50,000 nt of DNA from Deltaproteobacteria bacterium (GTDB lineage: Bacteria; Desulfobacterota; Deferrisomatia; Deferrisomatales; BM512), in contig PKTT01000036.1 in assembly GCA_002869015.1 (NCBI GenBank), positions 1-50,000 of the forward strand, written 5' to 3'. The notes under the pieces were generated by a model. It worked only from the letters and a program-made list of their open reading frames with translations. It was not told where the DNA came from and ran no database searches. Position numbers and translations under genes: made by a program. Positions 6,950-50,000 of the stretch are shown piece by piece. Position 1 is the stretch's first letter, and every line of letters starts with the position of its first letter.

Positions 6950-7003
6950 CAGGAGAATTTAACCAAATGAGGTGGGGCTGTCCAGCGAAGGGGCTGTTTT
7001 TAT

Positions 7004-7033
7004 TAAAAGTAAAGGGAGCCACTTCTGGCTCCC
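7004..7033 (-). terminator. Terminator of the 2-oxoacid oxidoreductase operon
   Basis: On the minus strand GGGAGCC-AGAAGT-GGCTCCC (7033-7014) is followed by TTTACTTTTAAT. It lies 160 bp past the stop of the beta-subunit gene and before the radical SAM gene on the same strand. The T tract is interrupted, so efficiency is uncertain. Confidence 0.6.
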
Positions 7034-7193
7034 CTCCTCCTCGCGACTCCCGGATAGACTGCCGCGACTCCCCGGATGCGCAGCCCGCGCGTTAAATCAA
7101 CAATTTAACCGGCCTTGGCCAGCTCCTTTAATATATTGCATGAACATCAATTAAGTTACGCGTATGTTAATTTTTACGAAATATTATGTAAAA

Positions 7194-8081
7194 TTATTTA
7201 AAGCACCTTATCTTGGCCCTGAGAGCGCTCCAATGTTCCTCAATCTCCGATGCCAGGGTTTCAGGCTCAATCCCCGATTTTTTAAAGCGTCTCTGTAAAT
7301 TCAGATACCTTGCGAGGGCCTCTTGTGAAAAATCCGGCTCGACGTTTACGACCCTCCTCTTGCCCTCGAATATCTCCATCAGCGGGAATAGGCCGGAGCG
7401 CACAGCAAGGCGGACAAGCTCCAAGCCGAGGCTGGGCTCACTTTTCCACCCCGTAGGGCAGGGCGAGAGCAGGTGGAGGAACCTGAAGCCCCTGGCATCA
7501 AGGGCGTAGCGCATCTTCCTGATGGCGTCCTCCTGATGGGCGATGGAGACCGTCGCTGCATAGGGCACACGGTGCGCCGCCATGATCTCCATTATATCCT
7601 TCTTGACCTCCACCTTGCCGCCCGGTGGAGTATTGGTGGTGGTTGCGCCATGTGGCGTTGCGGAGGAGCGCTGCCCTCCCGTGTTGCCATATATCTCGTT
7701 GTCGTAACAGATGTAGAGGATATCCTCATTTCGCTCAGCCGCCGCGGAGAGGGTCGCCATACCTATGTCGTAGGTGCCGCCATCGCCCGCCCAGCATACA
7801 ACGCGGGTATCCTCCCCATTTAATTTGGCGACCACGCTGAGCCCTGTCGCACCAGAGGCTGTGGCTGCGAAGGTTGTCATTAGCGCCGGAACGCCGTAAA
7901 CGCTGTTGGGAAAGAGCCCCGCAGCCACCGCAGAGCAGCAGGCGGGGATTACAATCTGTATATTTCTCTCACCCACGGCGCGGCTAAGGAGGGAGAGCCC
8001 GCTGGTAGCCCCGCAGCCCCCGCAATTGGAGTTGCCCGGGTTTAGTATCTGCCTGGTTGGGCACTCGCTCATAACGCTCAC
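7194..8081 (-). CDS. 2-oxoacid:acceptor oxidoreductase, beta (thiamine-diphosphate) subunit
   Basis: A 295-aa TPP-binding subunit of the pyruvate/2-ketoisovalerate/phenylglyoxylate oxidoreductase family. It has an N-terminal CGGCGATSGL cluster-ligand region and the TPP motif WAGDGGTYDIGM, followed by DNEIYGNTGGQRS, which holds the magnesium ligands and the conserved GNTGGQ. The start is GTG at 8081, overlapping the alpha stop (GTGA); an in-frame ATG at 8072 is the alternative. It is the last gene of a gamma/flavoprotein/delta fusion - alpha - beta operon. It decarboxylates the 2-oxoacid and passes electrons through Fe-S centres. The substrate is not determined by sequence alone. Confidence 0.9.
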   Translation of the reverse strand: MSVMSECPTRQILNPGNSNCGGCGATSGLSLLSRAVGERNIQIVIPACCSAVAAGLFPNSVYGVPALMTTFAATASGATGLSVVAKLNGEDTRVVCWAGDGGTYDIGMATLSAAAERNEDILYICYDNEIYGNTGGQRSSATPHGATTTNTPPGGKVEVKKDIMEIMAAHRVPYAATVSIAHQEDAIRKMRYALDARGFRFLHLLSPCPTGWKSEPSLGLELVRLAVRSGLFPLMEIFEGKRRVVNVEPDFSQEALARYLNLQRRFKKSGIEPETLASEIEEHWSALRAKIRCFK

Positions 8082-9241
8082 AGGTTTGTCTCCATAACAA
8101 TCGGCGCTGTAGCCGAATCTCTTTTAAGAAGGTCCTCCAAAAGAGCCTCTATGTGCTTTGGCCTCACATCGCCGCCGCCAACGCCGAGGATGTAGCCTTG
8201 CGAGATCGCGCCCGGCTCGGCAACACCCCGCGCCTCTCCCCAGAGCGCCCCACCAAAGCCGAGGCTTATATCTCGGTCGAGAACTCCAACCCGTCCTATC
8301 CCCCTCAACAGCTCCTTTAGTTGAAGTTCCGGGAAGGGGCGGTATCCCCGAACCCTTATGGAGCCGACCTTTACTCCGCGAAGGCGCGCTTCGTCCACAA
8401 TACAGTCAACGTTGGAGGAGATAGTTCCCATTGAGATGAGGACAGCCTCCGCATCCTCCAATTTATAGGGAACGAGGAGGTCGGGTGGACGCCTTCCAAA
8501 CTTTCGCTCAAACTCATCTTGCGCCTCGCCATAAACCTCAAAGAAGTTTGACATCGCCGCATGGTGCTGAGCCCTGTGCGCCTCGGTAACGGCGGGAGTA
8601 TCAACCCCGCCCATAGTTCGCGCATCATCTCTAAGGCGGTGTGGAAGGTCGAGGGTCGGAAGGTAACCGTCAACCTCCTCCTGGGAGGCGATATTCGTTT
8701 CAGCCATCGAGTGGGAGAGGATAAAGCCCTCCTGGCAGACCATAACCGGAAGGAGAATCCGTTTATCCTCCGCAATGCGGTAAGCCATAAGAACGGAGTC
8801 GAAGACCTCCTGATTGTCGGCGCAGTAGATCTGTATCCACCCCGAATCACGGAGCATCAGGGAGTCGCCATGGTCCGCCCAGAGGTTCCAGGGAGGACCG
8901 AGTGCGCGGTTGGCTGCCACCATCACCACTGGCAGGCGCATCAGCGCCGCTACATAGACGTTCTCGGCCATGTAGGCGAGGCCGTTTGATGATGTGGTAG
9001 TGAAGGTCCGCGCTCCTGCGGCGGCAGCCCCAATGCAGACGCCCATCGCCGAGTGCTCGCTCTCCACGCGCACAACCTGACCCTTTGAAAGCTCCGCGAC
9101 GCAGAGGTACTCCATACATTCTGTAGAGGGGGTTATCGGGTAAAGGCCCGCACAAAAACCCCGCGCGCTGCGGTTGGCGTTCCCCGCCATAGCGGCCGCC
9201 ATAGCGGCGGCATGGTTGGCGCTTATAAGCTGATCTGCCAT
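8078..9241 (-). CDS. 2-oxoacid:acceptor oxidoreductase, alpha subunit
   Basis: A 387-aa alpha subunit of the POR family. The N-terminal domain begins with the CoA/TPP-site signature GLYPITPSTECMEYL, followed by VRVESEHSAMGVCIGAAAAG and TFTTTSSNGLAYM. A transketolase C-terminal-like domain starts near residue 245 (LEDAEAVLISMGTISSNV and YRPFPELQLKELL). Its ATG directly abuts the TAG of the preceding gene (TAGATG), and its stop overlaps the beta start, so the three genes are translationally coupled. Together they form one complex. Confidence 0.92.
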   Translation of the reverse strand: MADQLISANHAAAMAAAMAGNANRSARGFCAGLYPITPSTECMEYLCVAELSKGQVVRVESEHSAMGVCIGAAAAGARTFTTTSSNGLAYMAENVYVAALMRLPVVMVAANRALGPPWNLWADHGDSLMLRDSGWIQIYCADNQEVFDSVLMAYRIAEDKRILLPVMVCQEGFILSHSMAETNIASQEEVDGYLPTLDLPHRLRDDARTMGGVDTPAVTEAHRAQHHAAMSNFFEVYGEAQDEFERKFGRRPPDLLVPYKLEDAEAVLISMGTISSNVDCIVDEARLRGVKVGSIRVRGYRPFPELQLKELLRGIGRVGVLDRDISLGFGGALWGEARGVAEPGAISQGYILGVGGGDVRPKHIEALLEDLLKRDSATAPIVMETNL

Positions 9242-11482
9242 CTATTGCCTCCCCGCCTCTAAAGCGGACATATCCATAGCCATGCGGGGGCACTCGGCGA
9301 CGCAGATGCCGCAACCCTTGCAGAACTCTCCATCGATTTTATAGCTCTCCCCCTCCCTGCTGATCACCCCCTCAGGGCAGCTGAAAAGGCAGGTGTCGCA
9401 AGCGGTGCAGGTGCCGCAGGAGAAGCAGCGCTCCGCCTCTTCAGGCCCCGCTATACCCTCTGATACTTCAATAAATGAAGTTATTCGTTCCGTGACCGGC
9501 AGGTGTTTTTCAGCCATTGGCGGTCGCTCCTCAAAAAAATCGGCGCGAACCCCCTCCGAGCTTACCTTTGGGTTCTCCTCTTTTCTTGCCCCACCCTTCA
9601 ATGCCAGGGCCGCGACTCTCCTACCATCGCCTATGGCGTGTGCGACGGTGCCCGCGCCAGTCGAGATATCTCCTGCAAGCCAGACATTAAGAGATTCAAC
9701 GCCATTTATGACGCGATCCCCATCGACCGACCAGCCATCAGGCAGGAGCCCCTCTTCAGGGGATTGCCCCAGCGCCATAAACAATCTGGTGCAGGGTATT
9801 ACCCTCTTTCTATCTGTGACTACAGGGCGGCGGCGGCCCGACTCGTCATAGTCGAAGAGCTCCACCTCCGCGACCTCTAGCGCCGAGATCGCTCCTTCAC
9901 CCTTAGCTCCGACGGGCTGGCTGTAAAGCTCAAGCCTGACCCCCTCCTCAACTGCGTCGGAGACCTCATCGTCGATGGCGGGCATCTCCTCGCGGCCTCG
10001 CCTGTAGAGCAGCGTGACCTTTTCCGCGCCCAGCCTGAGAGCTGTCCTCGCGCAGTCAACGGCTGTGTTCCCGCCCCCGGCAACCGCTACCTCCTCACCG
10101 GCAAGGCTCATCCGCTCGCCGGACTTCACAGCGCGCAGGAATGCTATACCCTGCTCAACACCCGAGAGGTCGCCAAAGCCCAGGTCGGCAAGCCGCCCCA
10201 GTCCCACCGCAATAACCACGGCATCATTTTCTTTGGATAGCGCCACAATCTTTTCAGAATCAACGGCAGTAGCGGGGATAAAATTCACCCCCAGCGCTTC
10301 GATGCGCCTTATCTCACGGTCGAGAATATCATTGGGAAGCCGGTACTCAGGAATGCCATACCGAAGAACTCCCCCGAACCCCTCCGCTGCTTCGTAAATC
10401 GTAACCGAGTGACCAGCCCGCGCAGCCTCAAAGGCAGCTGAAAGCCCTGCGGGACCTCCCCCGATTATGGCGATGCGTTTGGGGTTTTTATTTTCATCTT
10501 TTTTGGGAGGAGGGGAATCACCGTTGTCGCCGATCCAGCGCTCCAGCCCTCGTATATTTACAGACCCGTCGTAGAGCCTTCTGCTGCAACCGCCCATACA
10601 AGGCGCAGGGCAAACCCGCCCGCACACCGAGGGAAGAGGCTGGGTTGCCGAAAGGTGGCGCGCGGCGGCATCTGCACCATCGGCCTTGAGGGTCTGTATG
10701 AAGCCGACTACATCATTGCCTGCGGGACACTCACCGTTACAGGGCGCTTCGTGGAATAGGTAATGGGGTGTCTGCGTTCGCCAATCACCCGTGCAAACAG
10801 GCGCGAAGCGTTCAGTAATATGCTCTGTGAGGGGGAGTATCTCCGGGAAGCGGCCCAATACATAATCGCCGCCCGCCTTCGACGCACCCTCGGGCGCTTT
10901 GGTGGGCTCGAAAATCTCCACCGCACCATACGCCTCCTCGGCCGCCCCCAGGTCGCCGGATAGGCCAACCTTCTCATAAGCGTCGGCTATAACCTCCGTC
11001 GGCAGCTCCAGGAGCCGGGCATAAGCGCCGACCAAGGTTGTATTTATTATAACCACCGAGGCGGTGCCGATACCGTGCTTCCTGGCTATCGAGGTGGCGT
11101 CTATGACGCCTACCCTTAAGGAGGGATAGCGCTTTGCTACCGCAGCCCCCTCTTCAGTTGTGTTTATTAAGAGGAGCGCTCCGGGAGCGACACCATCCAG
11201 CACGGCGGGGCTCATGAGGCCTGGGTCGAGGACTATGAGATGGTCGGGGTTGTATACTTTATTGCGATTGGTAATTCTCTTATCGTCAACGCGGGTATAG
11301 GCGCGAATGGGGGCGCCCGCCCTTTCGGAGCCGTAGTCTCCAAAGGTCTGAACTTGAAGGCCGAGGCGGCTATAGAGGGTAGCGATTAGCTTGGCCAGGG
11401 TTACGCCTCCCTGCCCGCCCCTGCCATGGACCCTTAACTCAAGGGGAACTTTGAACGTGCCTCTATCCTTACTCTCTGACAT
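9242..11482 (-). CDS. Fusion: 2-oxoacid oxidoreductase gamma + GltD-like FAD/NAD(P) reductase + 2x[4Fe-4S] delta
   Basis: A 746-aa three-part protein. Residues 1-190 are the gamma domain (RVHGRGGQGGVTLAKL, GDYGSERAGAPI). Residues about 240-680 match the glutamate synthase small-subunit-like flavoprotein: cluster cysteines 248, 252, 287, 291, 295 and 299, FAD motif IIGGGPAGLSAAFEAARAG at 339, NAD(P) motif AGGGNTAVDCART and WLAGDISTGAGTVAHA. The C-terminus carries ferredoxin-type motifs CFSCGTCTACDTC and CKGCGICVAECP. It starts at an ATG behind GGAGAGGG and is first in the operon. Its parts correspond to PadE, PadH and PadF of phenylglyoxylate:NAD+ oxidoreductase. Inference: the complex hands electrons directly to NAD(P)+. 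Confidence 0.9.
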   Translation of the reverse strand: MSESKDRGTFKVPLELRVHGRGGQGGVTLAKLIATLYSRLGLQVQTFGDYGSERAGAPIRAYTRVDDKRITNRNKVYNPDHLIVLDPGLMSPAVLDGVAPGALLLINTTEEGAAVAKRYPSLRVGVIDATSIARKHGIGTASVVIINTTLVGAYARLLELPTEVIADAYEKVGLSGDLGAAEEAYGAVEIFEPTKAPEGASKAGGDYVLGRFPEILPLTEHITERFAPVCTGDWRTQTPHYLFHEAPCNGECPAGNDVVGFIQTLKADGADAAARHLSATQPLPSVCGRVCPAPCMGGCSRRLYDGSVNIRGLERWIGDNGDSPPPKKDENKNPKRIAIIGGGPAGLSAAFEAARAGHSVTIYEAAEGFGGVLRYGIPEYRLPNDILDREIRRIEALGVNFIPATAVDSEKIVALSKENDAVVIAVGLGRLADLGFGDLSGVEQGIAFLRAVKSGERMSLAGEEVAVAGGGNTAVDCARTALRLGAEKVTLLYRRGREEMPAIDDEVSDAVEEGVRLELYSQPVGAKGEGAISALEVAEVELFDYDESGRRRPVVTDRKRVIPCTRLFMALGQSPEEGLLPDGWSVDGDRVINGVESLNVWLAGDISTGAGTVAHAIGDGRRVAALALKGGARKEENPKVSSEGVRADFFEERPPMAEKHLPVTERITSFIEVSEGIAGPEEAERCFSCGTCTACDTCLFSCPEGVISREGESYKIDGEFCKGCGICVAECPRMAMDMSALEAGRQ

Positions 11483-11686
11483 TACCCTCTCCGGTTCCTG
11501 GAGCCCAAATGAATTGTAACTCAGCTTTTTGATTATGCCATCTCAAGTAGGGTATATAAATGAAAAGATGTGCGCCAAAAGAGCTGTGAGAGAGAGTACT
11601 CTTGTAATCGGCAGGGAAATTTTGCTAGATTGCCCATCTTAAAACGTGTTTTTATTGACTTTACCCTTTACCGTTGAGGTCGGCAG

Positions 11687-12898
11687 ATGAAAATTCTAAA
11701 GGCAAGCTGCGCTTCAACGCTTAAATTATCACTGATATTGCTACTCCTCCTCGCCGCAACTTCAGCAACAATGGCGGCCACCGCCGAGGTGGACTTCATC
11801 TCGCATATTAAAAGCATCTTGCTCTTAAAACGCGACCCGATCAGGGCCGAACTCCTTGCCCAGCGATTGATGGACCAGAAGGGGGCCGATGACCCGGACC
11901 TCATCATAATTGACACGCGAGAGTCTGGAGACTACGCCAAAGGGCACATTCCAGGGGCAATATCCATCCCCCTATTCGACCTCCCTGCGGCAATTGAAAA
12001 TGGCTCAATATCCAGCGACAAAGATATCGTAGTCGCTTCTTATGATGGAGGAGACGGCATGATGGCCGCGCTCCTTATAGACATCTTCAGGGTCGAAGAC
12101 CCAGGCGCCCAGAAGAAGGCGCTGGAGAATGGGTCAAAGCCTCCATATCCGAGGGCGACCAGCCTCTTTGCAGGCATGGAAACATGGTCGCTATCCCTTG
12201 CAACGGAGAAGGGGCGCTTTGACAACGCGCTGGGCTGCGCCAGGGTTGAGCGTCCAGCGGAGACCACTCCTAATTCCGTAGGGGAGAGGTTCCAGCCCCC
12301 AGGAGTTGAGTCAGCTGAGCTTAAAAGCGGGTTTAAAGAATTCGTGCTGAAGCGCGCTCGGGAGTATTTTGCAAAATTCGCCAACCAGAAGGAGCTGACC
12401 GTCACTGGTGTAGAAATAACCGACGACTCCATCAGAGGGAAAAAGACTCAAATTTTCAGCGTAAGGAAAGGGTTCCATTACATCTTCGGACACATCCCCG
12501 GAGCTGTTAGCGCGCCCTCAAACCTCTTATTGGAGTCTGAATACCTTAGCCTCATATACCCTGCCCGCGAAGTGGACCTCTACTGTTACACAGGCATGAA
12601 CGGAGGCATGGCCTCAATGGCCCTCGGCATCCTCGGCTATAAAGCGCGCAACATCAAATACGGCATAAATGGGTGGACCCTCTCGGAGAAGGTCATCTCC
12701 GGCCACCTTAAACATTTCGACCTTAAATGGGGTTGGGATTTCCCCCTTGCAAAGGGGAGCGAGCCCGGAGGGCCATTATGGGAAGATATTGTAGAGCCTA
12801 AAGGATGCGAGGGCTGCCATAGCGACCTTACAGCGCTCTCCCTTGCGGTCACCGCCCCCTCACCGGACGGCGAGATTAAGAAAAAGCAGCGCATATGA
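11687..12898 (+). CDS. Exported tandem-rhodanese protein with C-terminal haem motif (5' part of an interrupted gene)
   Basis: A 403-aa exported protein with a signal peptide (about 1-30, ending ATMAATA). Rhodanese domain 1 (about 55-125) has IIDTRESGDYAKGHIPGA but no cysteine in its active loop (ASYDGGDG), so it is probably inactive. Rhodanese domain 2 (about 250-345) has GHIPGAVSAP and an active-loop Cys300 in YCYTGMNGG. A CEGCH c-type haem site follows (Cys374/Cys377/His378). The frame hits TGA at 12896-12898 but stays open beyond with two more CXXCH motifs. A role in extracytoplasmic sulfur/selenium or electron transfer is inferred. Confidence 0.82.
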   Translation: MKILKASCASTLKLSLILLLLLAATSATMAATAEVDFISHIKSILLLKRDPIRAELLAQRLMDQKGADDPDLIIIDTRESGDYAKGHIPGAISIPLFDLPAAIENGSISSDKDIVVASYDGGDGMMAALLIDIFRVEDPGAQKKALENGSKPPYPRATSLFAGMETWSLSLATEKGRFDNALGCARVERPAETTPNSVGERFQPPGVESAELKSGFKEFVLKRAREYFAKFANQKELTVTGVEITDDSIRGKKTQIFSVRKGFHYIFGHIPGAVSAPSNLLLESEYLSLIYPAREVDLYCYTGMNGGMASMALGILGYKARNIKYGINGWTLSEKVISGHLKHFDLKWGWDFPLAKGSEPGGPLWEDIVEPKGCEGCHSDLTALSLAVTAPSPDGEIKKKQRI

Positions 12899-15288: not shown

Positions 15289-15319
15289 TTGACATCATTG
15301 TTAACTTGAACGTTAATGT
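15289..15319 (+). promoter_or_regulatory. MerR-type promoter with operator, leucine operon
   Basis: TTGACA (15289-15294) and TAATGT (15314-15319) are separated by 19 bp, the overlong spacer characteristic of MerR-activated promoters. An inverted repeat TTAAC-N6-GTTAA (15301-15316) is centred in the spacer. The 17-bp core TTAACTTGAACGTTAAT recurs with three changes at 32040-32056. The MerR gene is encoded 130 bp upstream on the other strand. Confidence 0.7.
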
Positions 15320-49805: not shown

Positions 49806-49811
49806 TAAATT

Positions 49812-49925
49812 TCGGCGGCGACCTACTCTCCCACCAAGTTACCCTGGCAGTACCATCGGCGCTGAGGGGCTTAACGGCCGTGTTCGGAATGGGAACGGGT
49901 GTCTCTCCCTCGCCATAACCACCGA
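49812..49925 (-). rRNA. rrf: 5S ribosomal RNA
   Basis: Minus-strand sequence of about 114 nt with the conserved core CCGTTCCCATTCCGAACACG, the GTTAAGCCC segment, GCGCCGATGGTACTGC and GGGAGAGTAGG. The two ends pair over eight positions (TCGGTGGT with GCCGCCGA), helix I of 5S rRNA, which sets the limits. It is the last gene of an rRNA operon entering from the right edge. Confidence 0.96.
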
Positions 49926-50000
49926 AAAAAGGGAACAATCCCATAGTCGGTGGAAAAAGAAGTTTTGCGTCACGCTTTTATCTGAAAGAGTCTTACGCTT
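49926..50000 (-). other. Spacer between 23S and 5S rRNA genes (partial)
   Basis: 75 bp to the right edge contain no recognisable 23S end or tRNA. There is a small GGGA-ACAA-TCCC hairpin (49931-49942). The 23S gene should lie just outside the window on the minus strand. Confidence 0.55.

Follow-up and report, generated by a model that had tools for sequence, protein, structure and literature searches.

A gamma-flavoprotein-ferredoxin fusion in a predicted NADP+-linked 2-oxoacid oxidoreductase of a Deltaproteobacteria bacterium

2-Oxoacid:ferredoxin oxidoreductases (OFORs) are commonly depicted as ferredoxin-dependent, and models of anaerobes balance their electrons accordingly. A three-gene OFOR operon of Deltaproteobacteria bacterium (Desulfobacterota; assembly GCA_002869015.1) raises the question of where its electrons go. 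The operon lies in the window, a stretch of 50,000 nucleotides covering positions 1 to 50,000 of contig PKTT01000036.1. Its first gene (9242..11482, minus strand) encodes a single chain of 746 amino acids (aa) that joins a POR gamma domain, a GltD-like module for flavin adenine dinucleotide (FAD) and NAD(P), and a delta-type 2[4Fe-4S] ferredoxin. In this study, we analyzed the domains, conservation and genomic context of this fused subunit computationally. Its sequence suggests that the three genes probably encode a POR/VOR-type 2-oxoacid oxidoreductase with a built-in NADP+-reducing flavoprotein, through which electrons would go straight to NADP+ rather than to free ferredoxin. The parts are known, as is the kind of enzyme with an NAD(P)-linked exit; the fusion of the parts in one chain is new.

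The fused gene and its conservation

The open reading frame starts with ATG and runs for 746 codons from 11482 to 9242, and the plus-strand frame is full of stop codons. The OFOR alpha subunit (8078..9241, minus strand; 387 aa; POR_N and PFOR_II by Pfam and NCBIfam) begins one base past the stop codon of the fusion. The OFOR beta subunit (7194..8081, minus strand; 295 aa; thiamine pyrophosphate (TPP)-binding) overlaps alpha by 4 bases. An earlier sequence-only reading of the window had described the three-part chain and an alpha and beta that follow without gaps, and both descriptions held. Pfam placed POR at residues 22-171 (97.7 bits), Fer4_20 at 245-320 (57.5), Pyr_redox_2 at 336-620 (98.7) and Fer4-type domains at 691-735. 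In NCBIfam, PorC_KorC matched residues 14-187 with 123.6 bits, above its cut-off of 81.1, while PRK12771 (residues 229-739) reached 451.9 bits against 516 and PorD_KorD (691-739) 46.5 against 60.05. The E-values of the gamma and flavoprotein regions, 1e-27 to 1e-135, excluded chance.

The gamma domain occupies residues 14-187 (10922..11443, minus strand). The GltD-like core, delimited by Pfam, alignment and the closest solved structures, spans residues 245-625 (9608..10750, minus strand). It holds the Fer4_20 cysteines 248, 252, 287, 291, 295 and 299, an FAD Rossmann domain from residue 336 and an NADP Rossmann domain from residue 464. The delta-type domain spans residues 691-739 (9266..9412, minus strand) and is identified by PorD_KorD, Fer4 families and conserved cysteines (692, 695, 698, 702 and 721, 724, 727, 731). 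All OFOR Pfam families scored over their cut-offs: PF01558 in gamma (97.7 bits), PF01855 and PF17147 in alpha (198.5 and 79.4) and PF02775 in beta (77.5). The beta TPP motif GDG..(D)IG..N..Y.NTG (G99 D100 G101 ... N128) and Cys 20, 23, 49 and 208 were kept in at least 95% of rows with a letter among 20 beta sequences, one of them gapped at Cys20/23. Motif and cysteines aligned to the POR structure 9bt4 and to oxalate oxidoreductase structures. The pyruvate/2-ketoisovalerate:ferredoxin oxidoreductases of the gamma-delta-alpha-beta type (PDB 9bt4; oxalate oxidoreductase 5c4i) share the gamma, alpha, beta and delta domains, the TPP motif and the beta cluster cysteines with this operon. However, they have no flavoprotein, whereas here the GltD-like module joins gamma to delta.

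The sequence-only reading had called for a comparison of domain architecture across genomes. A full-length open fusion was present in 7 of 395 genomes sampled from the phylum: the window genome, its sister (PKTU01, Deltaproteobacteria bacterium BM525, locus L008; fusion 80% identical) and five others at 51-55% identity. Nine genomes carried it in all, in three families (2/5 genomes of the window's family, 3/5 of family f85 and 4/18 of family f58). Among 82 genomes from the KSB1 phylum, 8 matches were obtained at E 1e-75, and none of them extended over gamma. All fusions formed one clade with an SH-aLRT of 100 both in a 29-row tree of the flavoprotein part and in a 31-row tree of alpha; the two trees came from quick searches without bootstrap. 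The second flavoprotein of locus L056 was left out of the former tree and the over-long alpha frames of L084 and L085 out of the latter; the alpha of the fused locus L059 was absent from the alpha gene set. Because all fusions fall in one clade, a single fusion event suffices. Against the sister sequence, the ratio of nonsynonymous to synonymous substitution rates (dN/dS) was 0.07-0.09 in gamma, in the GltD core and in the arm plus delta; dS was saturated in the linker. Since intact fusions occur in nine genomes of three families, the fusion is real and conserved and is not an assembly artefact.

Permutation of the GltD module and the predicted electron route

Ordinary GltD and NfnL proteins start with an arm ending in EAxRCxxC, after which PC..CP follows at once. 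In the fusion, PC..CP (Cys248 and Cys252) has no preceding arm. The segment matching the arm lies at residues 648-690 (9413..9541, minus strand; Cys 686 and 689), past both Rossmann domains. The first hint came from phmmer, as a weak second domain against NfnI. A hidden Markov model (HMM) built from 26 arms matched residues 11-52 of the sister genome's canonical GltD with 36.8 bits (independent E-value 1.4e-12), and the best score over 2000 shuffles of that protein was 7.5 bits. By this comparison, the GltD module of the fusion is circularly permuted, with its Cys-x2-Cys arm placed C-terminally, directly before the delta ferredoxin. The module, which the sequence-only reading had called complete, is so if the C-terminal arm is counted, but it does not follow the ordinary order.

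The closest solved GltD-like domains were 9bov_A (7e-77), 9n5u_A and StnC of the Stn transhydrogenase (8oh5_C); 9bov_A and 8oh5_C aligned through the C-terminal arm. StnC thus resembles the fusion in having a GltD-like domain with a C-terminal arm, and its residues 102-565 carry FAD, NADPH and two [4Fe4S] clusters according to the available text of PMC10482914. It differs in its partners, since it docks on NuoG-like and HydBC-like modules instead of an OFOR. The same permuted GltD with a C-terminal ferredoxin is found in the 'NAD(P)-binding protein' PRK12771 / NF009410, which is about 35-42% identical and also stands beside OFOR genes, but as a separate gene. Although the fusion scored below the curated cut-off of this model, its domains come in the same order across model positions 31-563, and it would be a diverged PRK12771 relative; proteins of this type are its nearest relatives.

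Cys 248, 252, 291, 295 and 299 were kept in all 30 aligned rows, Cys287 in 26 of the 30, and Cys 686 and 689 in 29/29 rows with letters; the L056 row represents another flavoprotein from that locus. If the ligand assignment of GltD clusters carries over, five [4Fe-4S] clusters are predicted: two each in the GltD module and in delta, and a single one in beta (Cys 20, 23, 49 and 208). For the outer GltD cluster, the probable ligands are Cys248 and Cys299 together with the permuted Cys686 and Cys689. Since Cys689 lies three residues before the first delta ligand, we infer that the permutation places the outer cluster three residues from the delta ferredoxin, which would weld the ferredoxin to the entry cluster of the flavoprotein.

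These assignments suggest a route for the electrons. The 2-oxoacid would lose CO2 on TPP where alpha and beta meet, and its acyl group would be passed to coenzyme A (CoA). Single electrons would move from the beta [4Fe-4S] cluster through the two delta clusters and the two GltD-type clusters to FAD, from which NADP+ would be reduced as hydride. The predicted reaction in the oxidative direction is 2-oxoacid + CoA + NADP+ -> acyl-CoA + CO2 + NADPH.

The electron acceptor and the direction of the reaction

The second Rossmann motif of the fusion is GGGNTAVDCARTALRLGAEKVTLLYRRGREEMPA, with the Arg-Arg pair of YRRGREEMPA. The pair was present in 7/7 aligned fusions and in the other two (L095 and L096), and thus in all nine. 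It was also kept in 22 of the 23 remaining aligned rows. In Fdh3B of Thermococcus onnurineus, such a pair was placed at the 2'-phosphate by modelling, and Fdh3 activity was 77.4 U/mg on NADP+ versus 11.2 on NAD+, as given in the available part of PMC8965080. Fdh3 likewise carries an Nfn-like NAD(P)-binding subunit with a strong NADP+ preference on a ferredoxin-type enzyme, but it is a formate dehydrogenase with separate subunits. Because the Arg-Arg pair is kept in 9/9 fusions and has the precedent of Fdh3B, NADP+ is favoured over NAD+ as the acceptor. The NAD(P)-linked electron exit of the sequence-only reading thereby stood and could be narrowed to NADP+; the same kind of flavoprotein also accompanied OFOR genes in 23/23 loci and nifJ in three proteobacteria (see below).

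The same mechanism with NAD+ as acceptor seems unlikely. It would follow from the analogy with PadH that the sequence-only reading had drawn when it likened the parts of the chain to the subunits PadE, PadH and PadF of PadEFGHI, an OFOR with a pyridine-nucleotide-reducing flavoprotein. That equivalence failed. PadH belongs to another family than the flavoprotein of the fusion, and its model NF045765 gave four weak matches elsewhere in the window genome and none at the fused gene. PadE, PadG and PadI scored under their equivalog cut-offs (85.7/300, 240.9/700 and 157.7/700 bits). The conserved Arg-Arg pair also argues against NAD+. The best biochemical precedent would be KorABC of Azoarcus evansii, a 2-oxoglutarate:NADP+ oxidoreductase, which was reportedly purified as an NADP+-reducing OFOR complex with a flavoprotein subunit. 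PadEFGHI itself is named as phenylglyoxylate:NAD+ oxidoreductase in the available text of PMC5109826.

Several observations weigh against a built-in NADP+ exit. The flavoprotein, delta, alpha and beta scores were all under the NCBIfam cut-offs. An AlphaFold model of the fusion from 8 sequences had a mean predicted local distance difference test (pLDDT) score of 56.4, too poor for cluster geometry. The exception to the Arg-Arg pair, a separate OFOR flavoprotein (L083:7293-9080), has VAPEAPDD in its place and is perhaps NAD+-specific. In addition, free ferredoxin could still take electrons from the delta domain and beta; Fdh3 uses both acceptors. Finally, positions like those of NfnB are conserved, with E314 in 29/30 rows and R381 in 30/30.

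The retention of a full delta ferredoxin in the fusion would fit ferredoxin as the physiological acceptor, with the flavoprotein as a side exit to NADPH or a built-in NADPH:ferredoxin reductase. The use of ferredoxin by Fdh3 points the same way, but in the available part of PMC8965080 it was about a hundred times slower than that of NADP+ (0.83 versus 77.4 U/mg). The flavoprotein is moreover either part of the fusion or encoded alongside, and purifying selection on it is strong, which argues against this role for ferredoxin, and we regard it as improbable. With NADP+ as the acceptor, it is plausible that free ferredoxin is dispensable for this enzyme.

The conserved E314 and R381 occupy positions linked to bifurcation in NfnB and bear on whether electrons might be bifurcated or confurcated at the GltD FAD, with NADPH coupled to a second acceptor as well as to the 2-oxoacid couple. 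E314 is the counterpart of the NfnB Glu, at the place of K170 in StnC, and R381 is the counterpart of the FAD-near R201; Nfn-type and Stn proteins are among the nearest solved relatives. An argument that bifurcation fails for lack of the NfnB Glu was dropped, as the fusion has Glu at that position. However, a Pfam search found no NfnA-like or HydBC-like partner among the three genes. The GltD domain of StnC has this Arg too, yet according to the available text of PMC10482914 it does not bifurcate, so the NfnB-like Glu and Arg are not diagnostic. We regard bifurcation as very improbable here.

Reverse operation, an NADPH-driven reductive carboxylation of acyl-CoA, also appears quite improbable, since catabolic CoA genes surround the operon in the window. 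In principle, OFOR reactions can run either way, but NADPH, at about -320 mV standard potential, would be too weak for a couple near -500 mV unless coupled. For Fdh3, the reduction of CO2 with NADPH is described in the available part of PMC8965080.

The separate flavoprotein, the substrate and the neighbourhood

The flavoprotein was a separate gene beside OFOR genes in all 23 opened non-fusion loci of the phylum. It had gamma just upstream and alpha just downstream in 20 of them and followed beta in L073, L074 and L081. These loci were chosen from the best matches, several because gamma also matched, and give no estimate for the phylum. In the ancestral form, gamma and flavoprotein are usually separate neighbours in the four-gene operon of relatives. 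Outside the phylum, gamma adjoined the flavoprotein in the KSB1 loci L009, L091 and L092, while no OFOR match was found in the available stretch of L010 (Pirellulales) and L090. In a plasmid collection, 21 records matched the flavoprotein and six were opened. A single-chain PFOR (nifJ) directly followed a PRK12771-type flavoprotein in Methylovirgula sp. HY1 (L109:6905-12220), Phenylobacterium zucineum HLK1 (L110:6938-12197) and Aeromonas caviae (L112, about 7001-12180). The plasmid records of Acetoanaerobium and Photobacterium had longer GltD-containing proteins and no OFOR seen adjacent.

Because the flavoprotein occurs beside both OFOR operons and nifJ, it looks like a plug-in for ferredoxin-type enzymes. 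We tentatively suggest that the permuted GltD-ferredoxin flavoprotein serves generally as a plug-in and may turn OFORs in all three arrangements (paired with nifJ, in the four-gene POR/VOR operon or as the one-chain fusion) into NADP+-dependent 2-oxoacid dehydrogenases. These could form a widespread, uncharacterised alternative to the lipoate-dependent pyruvate dehydrogenase (PDH) and branched-chain keto acid dehydrogenase (BCKDH) complexes. In this lineage, where the genome seems to lack E1/E2 complexes, the plug-in may have come to perform a catabolic reaction, for example by oxidising the keto acid derived from leucine. Such a plug-in would be more interesting than the fusion itself. If an NADP+ module is common among OFORs, the conversion of 2-oxoacids to acyl-CoA would yield NADPH directly and be effectively irreversible, and the lack of PDH or BCKDH complexes in some genomes would have a simple explanation. 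The fusion offers one tractable protein, from three genes in one operon, for studying the attachment of a ferredoxin domain to a GltD-type flavoprotein. In the literature searched, with most subscription papers outside its scope, we found no prior description of an OFOR-GltD fusion and no biochemical paper on the PRK12771-type flavoprotein. Two further neighbourhoods were observed: in Methylovirgula and Phenylobacterium a dihydroorotate-dehydrogenase-like gene follows nifJ, and in the sixth plasmid record, from Collinsella (L114:4596-8233), a GltD-like NAD(P)-binding protein adjoins an [FeFe] hydrogenase of group A.

The substrate was approached through subunit type, genome content and neighbouring genes. 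The best NCBIfam matches were PorA_Arch for alpha (369.1 bits, cut-off 550) and the VOR-type PRK11864 for beta (323.7, cut-off 405), both below the POR/VOR equivalog thresholds. The window genome has seven POR gamma domains in all, and its OFORs include a single-chain PFOR (1795 bits), an IOR, an OGOR-like and two VorB-like enzymes. It gave no match to the E2 acyltransferase PF00198 and none above cut-off to E1 PF00676 (one match of 21.1 bits against 22); at a genome completeness of 95%, these absences are likely but uncertain. Because E2 and above-threshold E1 matches are missing, the 2-oxoacids of this genome probably go through its OFORs. As a separate single-chain PFOR is present, our guess for the fused enzyme is a branched-chain or other non-pyruvate 2-oxoacid.

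A leucine-type cluster starts 2.3 kb from the fusion, with HMG-CoA lyase, acyl-CoA dehydrogenase, carboxyltransferase, acetoacetate-CoA ligase, enoyl-CoA hydratase and a MerR regulator. The sister genome has the same neighbours, and the neighbourhood is kept in the two genomes of the genus only. Leucine genes were not found around five fusions of the two other families (L055-L059 opened). An AMP-forming acyl-CoA ligase lies near the fusion in L057 and L058, which does not fix the substrate. The near-palindrome TTAACTTGAACGTTAA (15301-15316) in the MerR/acyl-CoA dehydrogenase promoter is conserved in the sister genome. No counterpart was seen before the fused gene by eye, without a motif scan against background, and the conserved leader there differs. 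Control of the fused gene by the neighbouring MerR protein, which we take to be LiuR-like from its position (no family match at E 1e-40), was thus not supported, as no shared operator site was seen. The branched-chain substrate of the sequence-only reading fits the adjoining leucine genes in the two genomes of the genus, but not their absence at the other-family fusions, the missing operator or the two other VorB-type OFORs. A branched-chain keto acid is therefore a possible, weakly supported substrate.

Other genes were also observed around these operons. Between the OFOR and HMG-CoA lyase (window:11687-13213) lies a double-rhodanese protein that ends in a C-terminal region with a CxxCH motif and looks like an exported heme protein; next comes a small protein bearing several CxxC/CxxCH motifs. 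Regulators with an XRE-type helix-turn-helix and a cupin domain recur beside OFOR operons (window:21127-21696; L055:13361-13915; L058; L059; L062-L065; L067; L069; L077; L084). HTH_3 and Cupin_2 were identified in the L055 regulator, and those of the other loci were recognized as BLAST matches of the regulator in the window. A 5S rRNA lies at 49810-49926 on the minus strand, close to the window's end.

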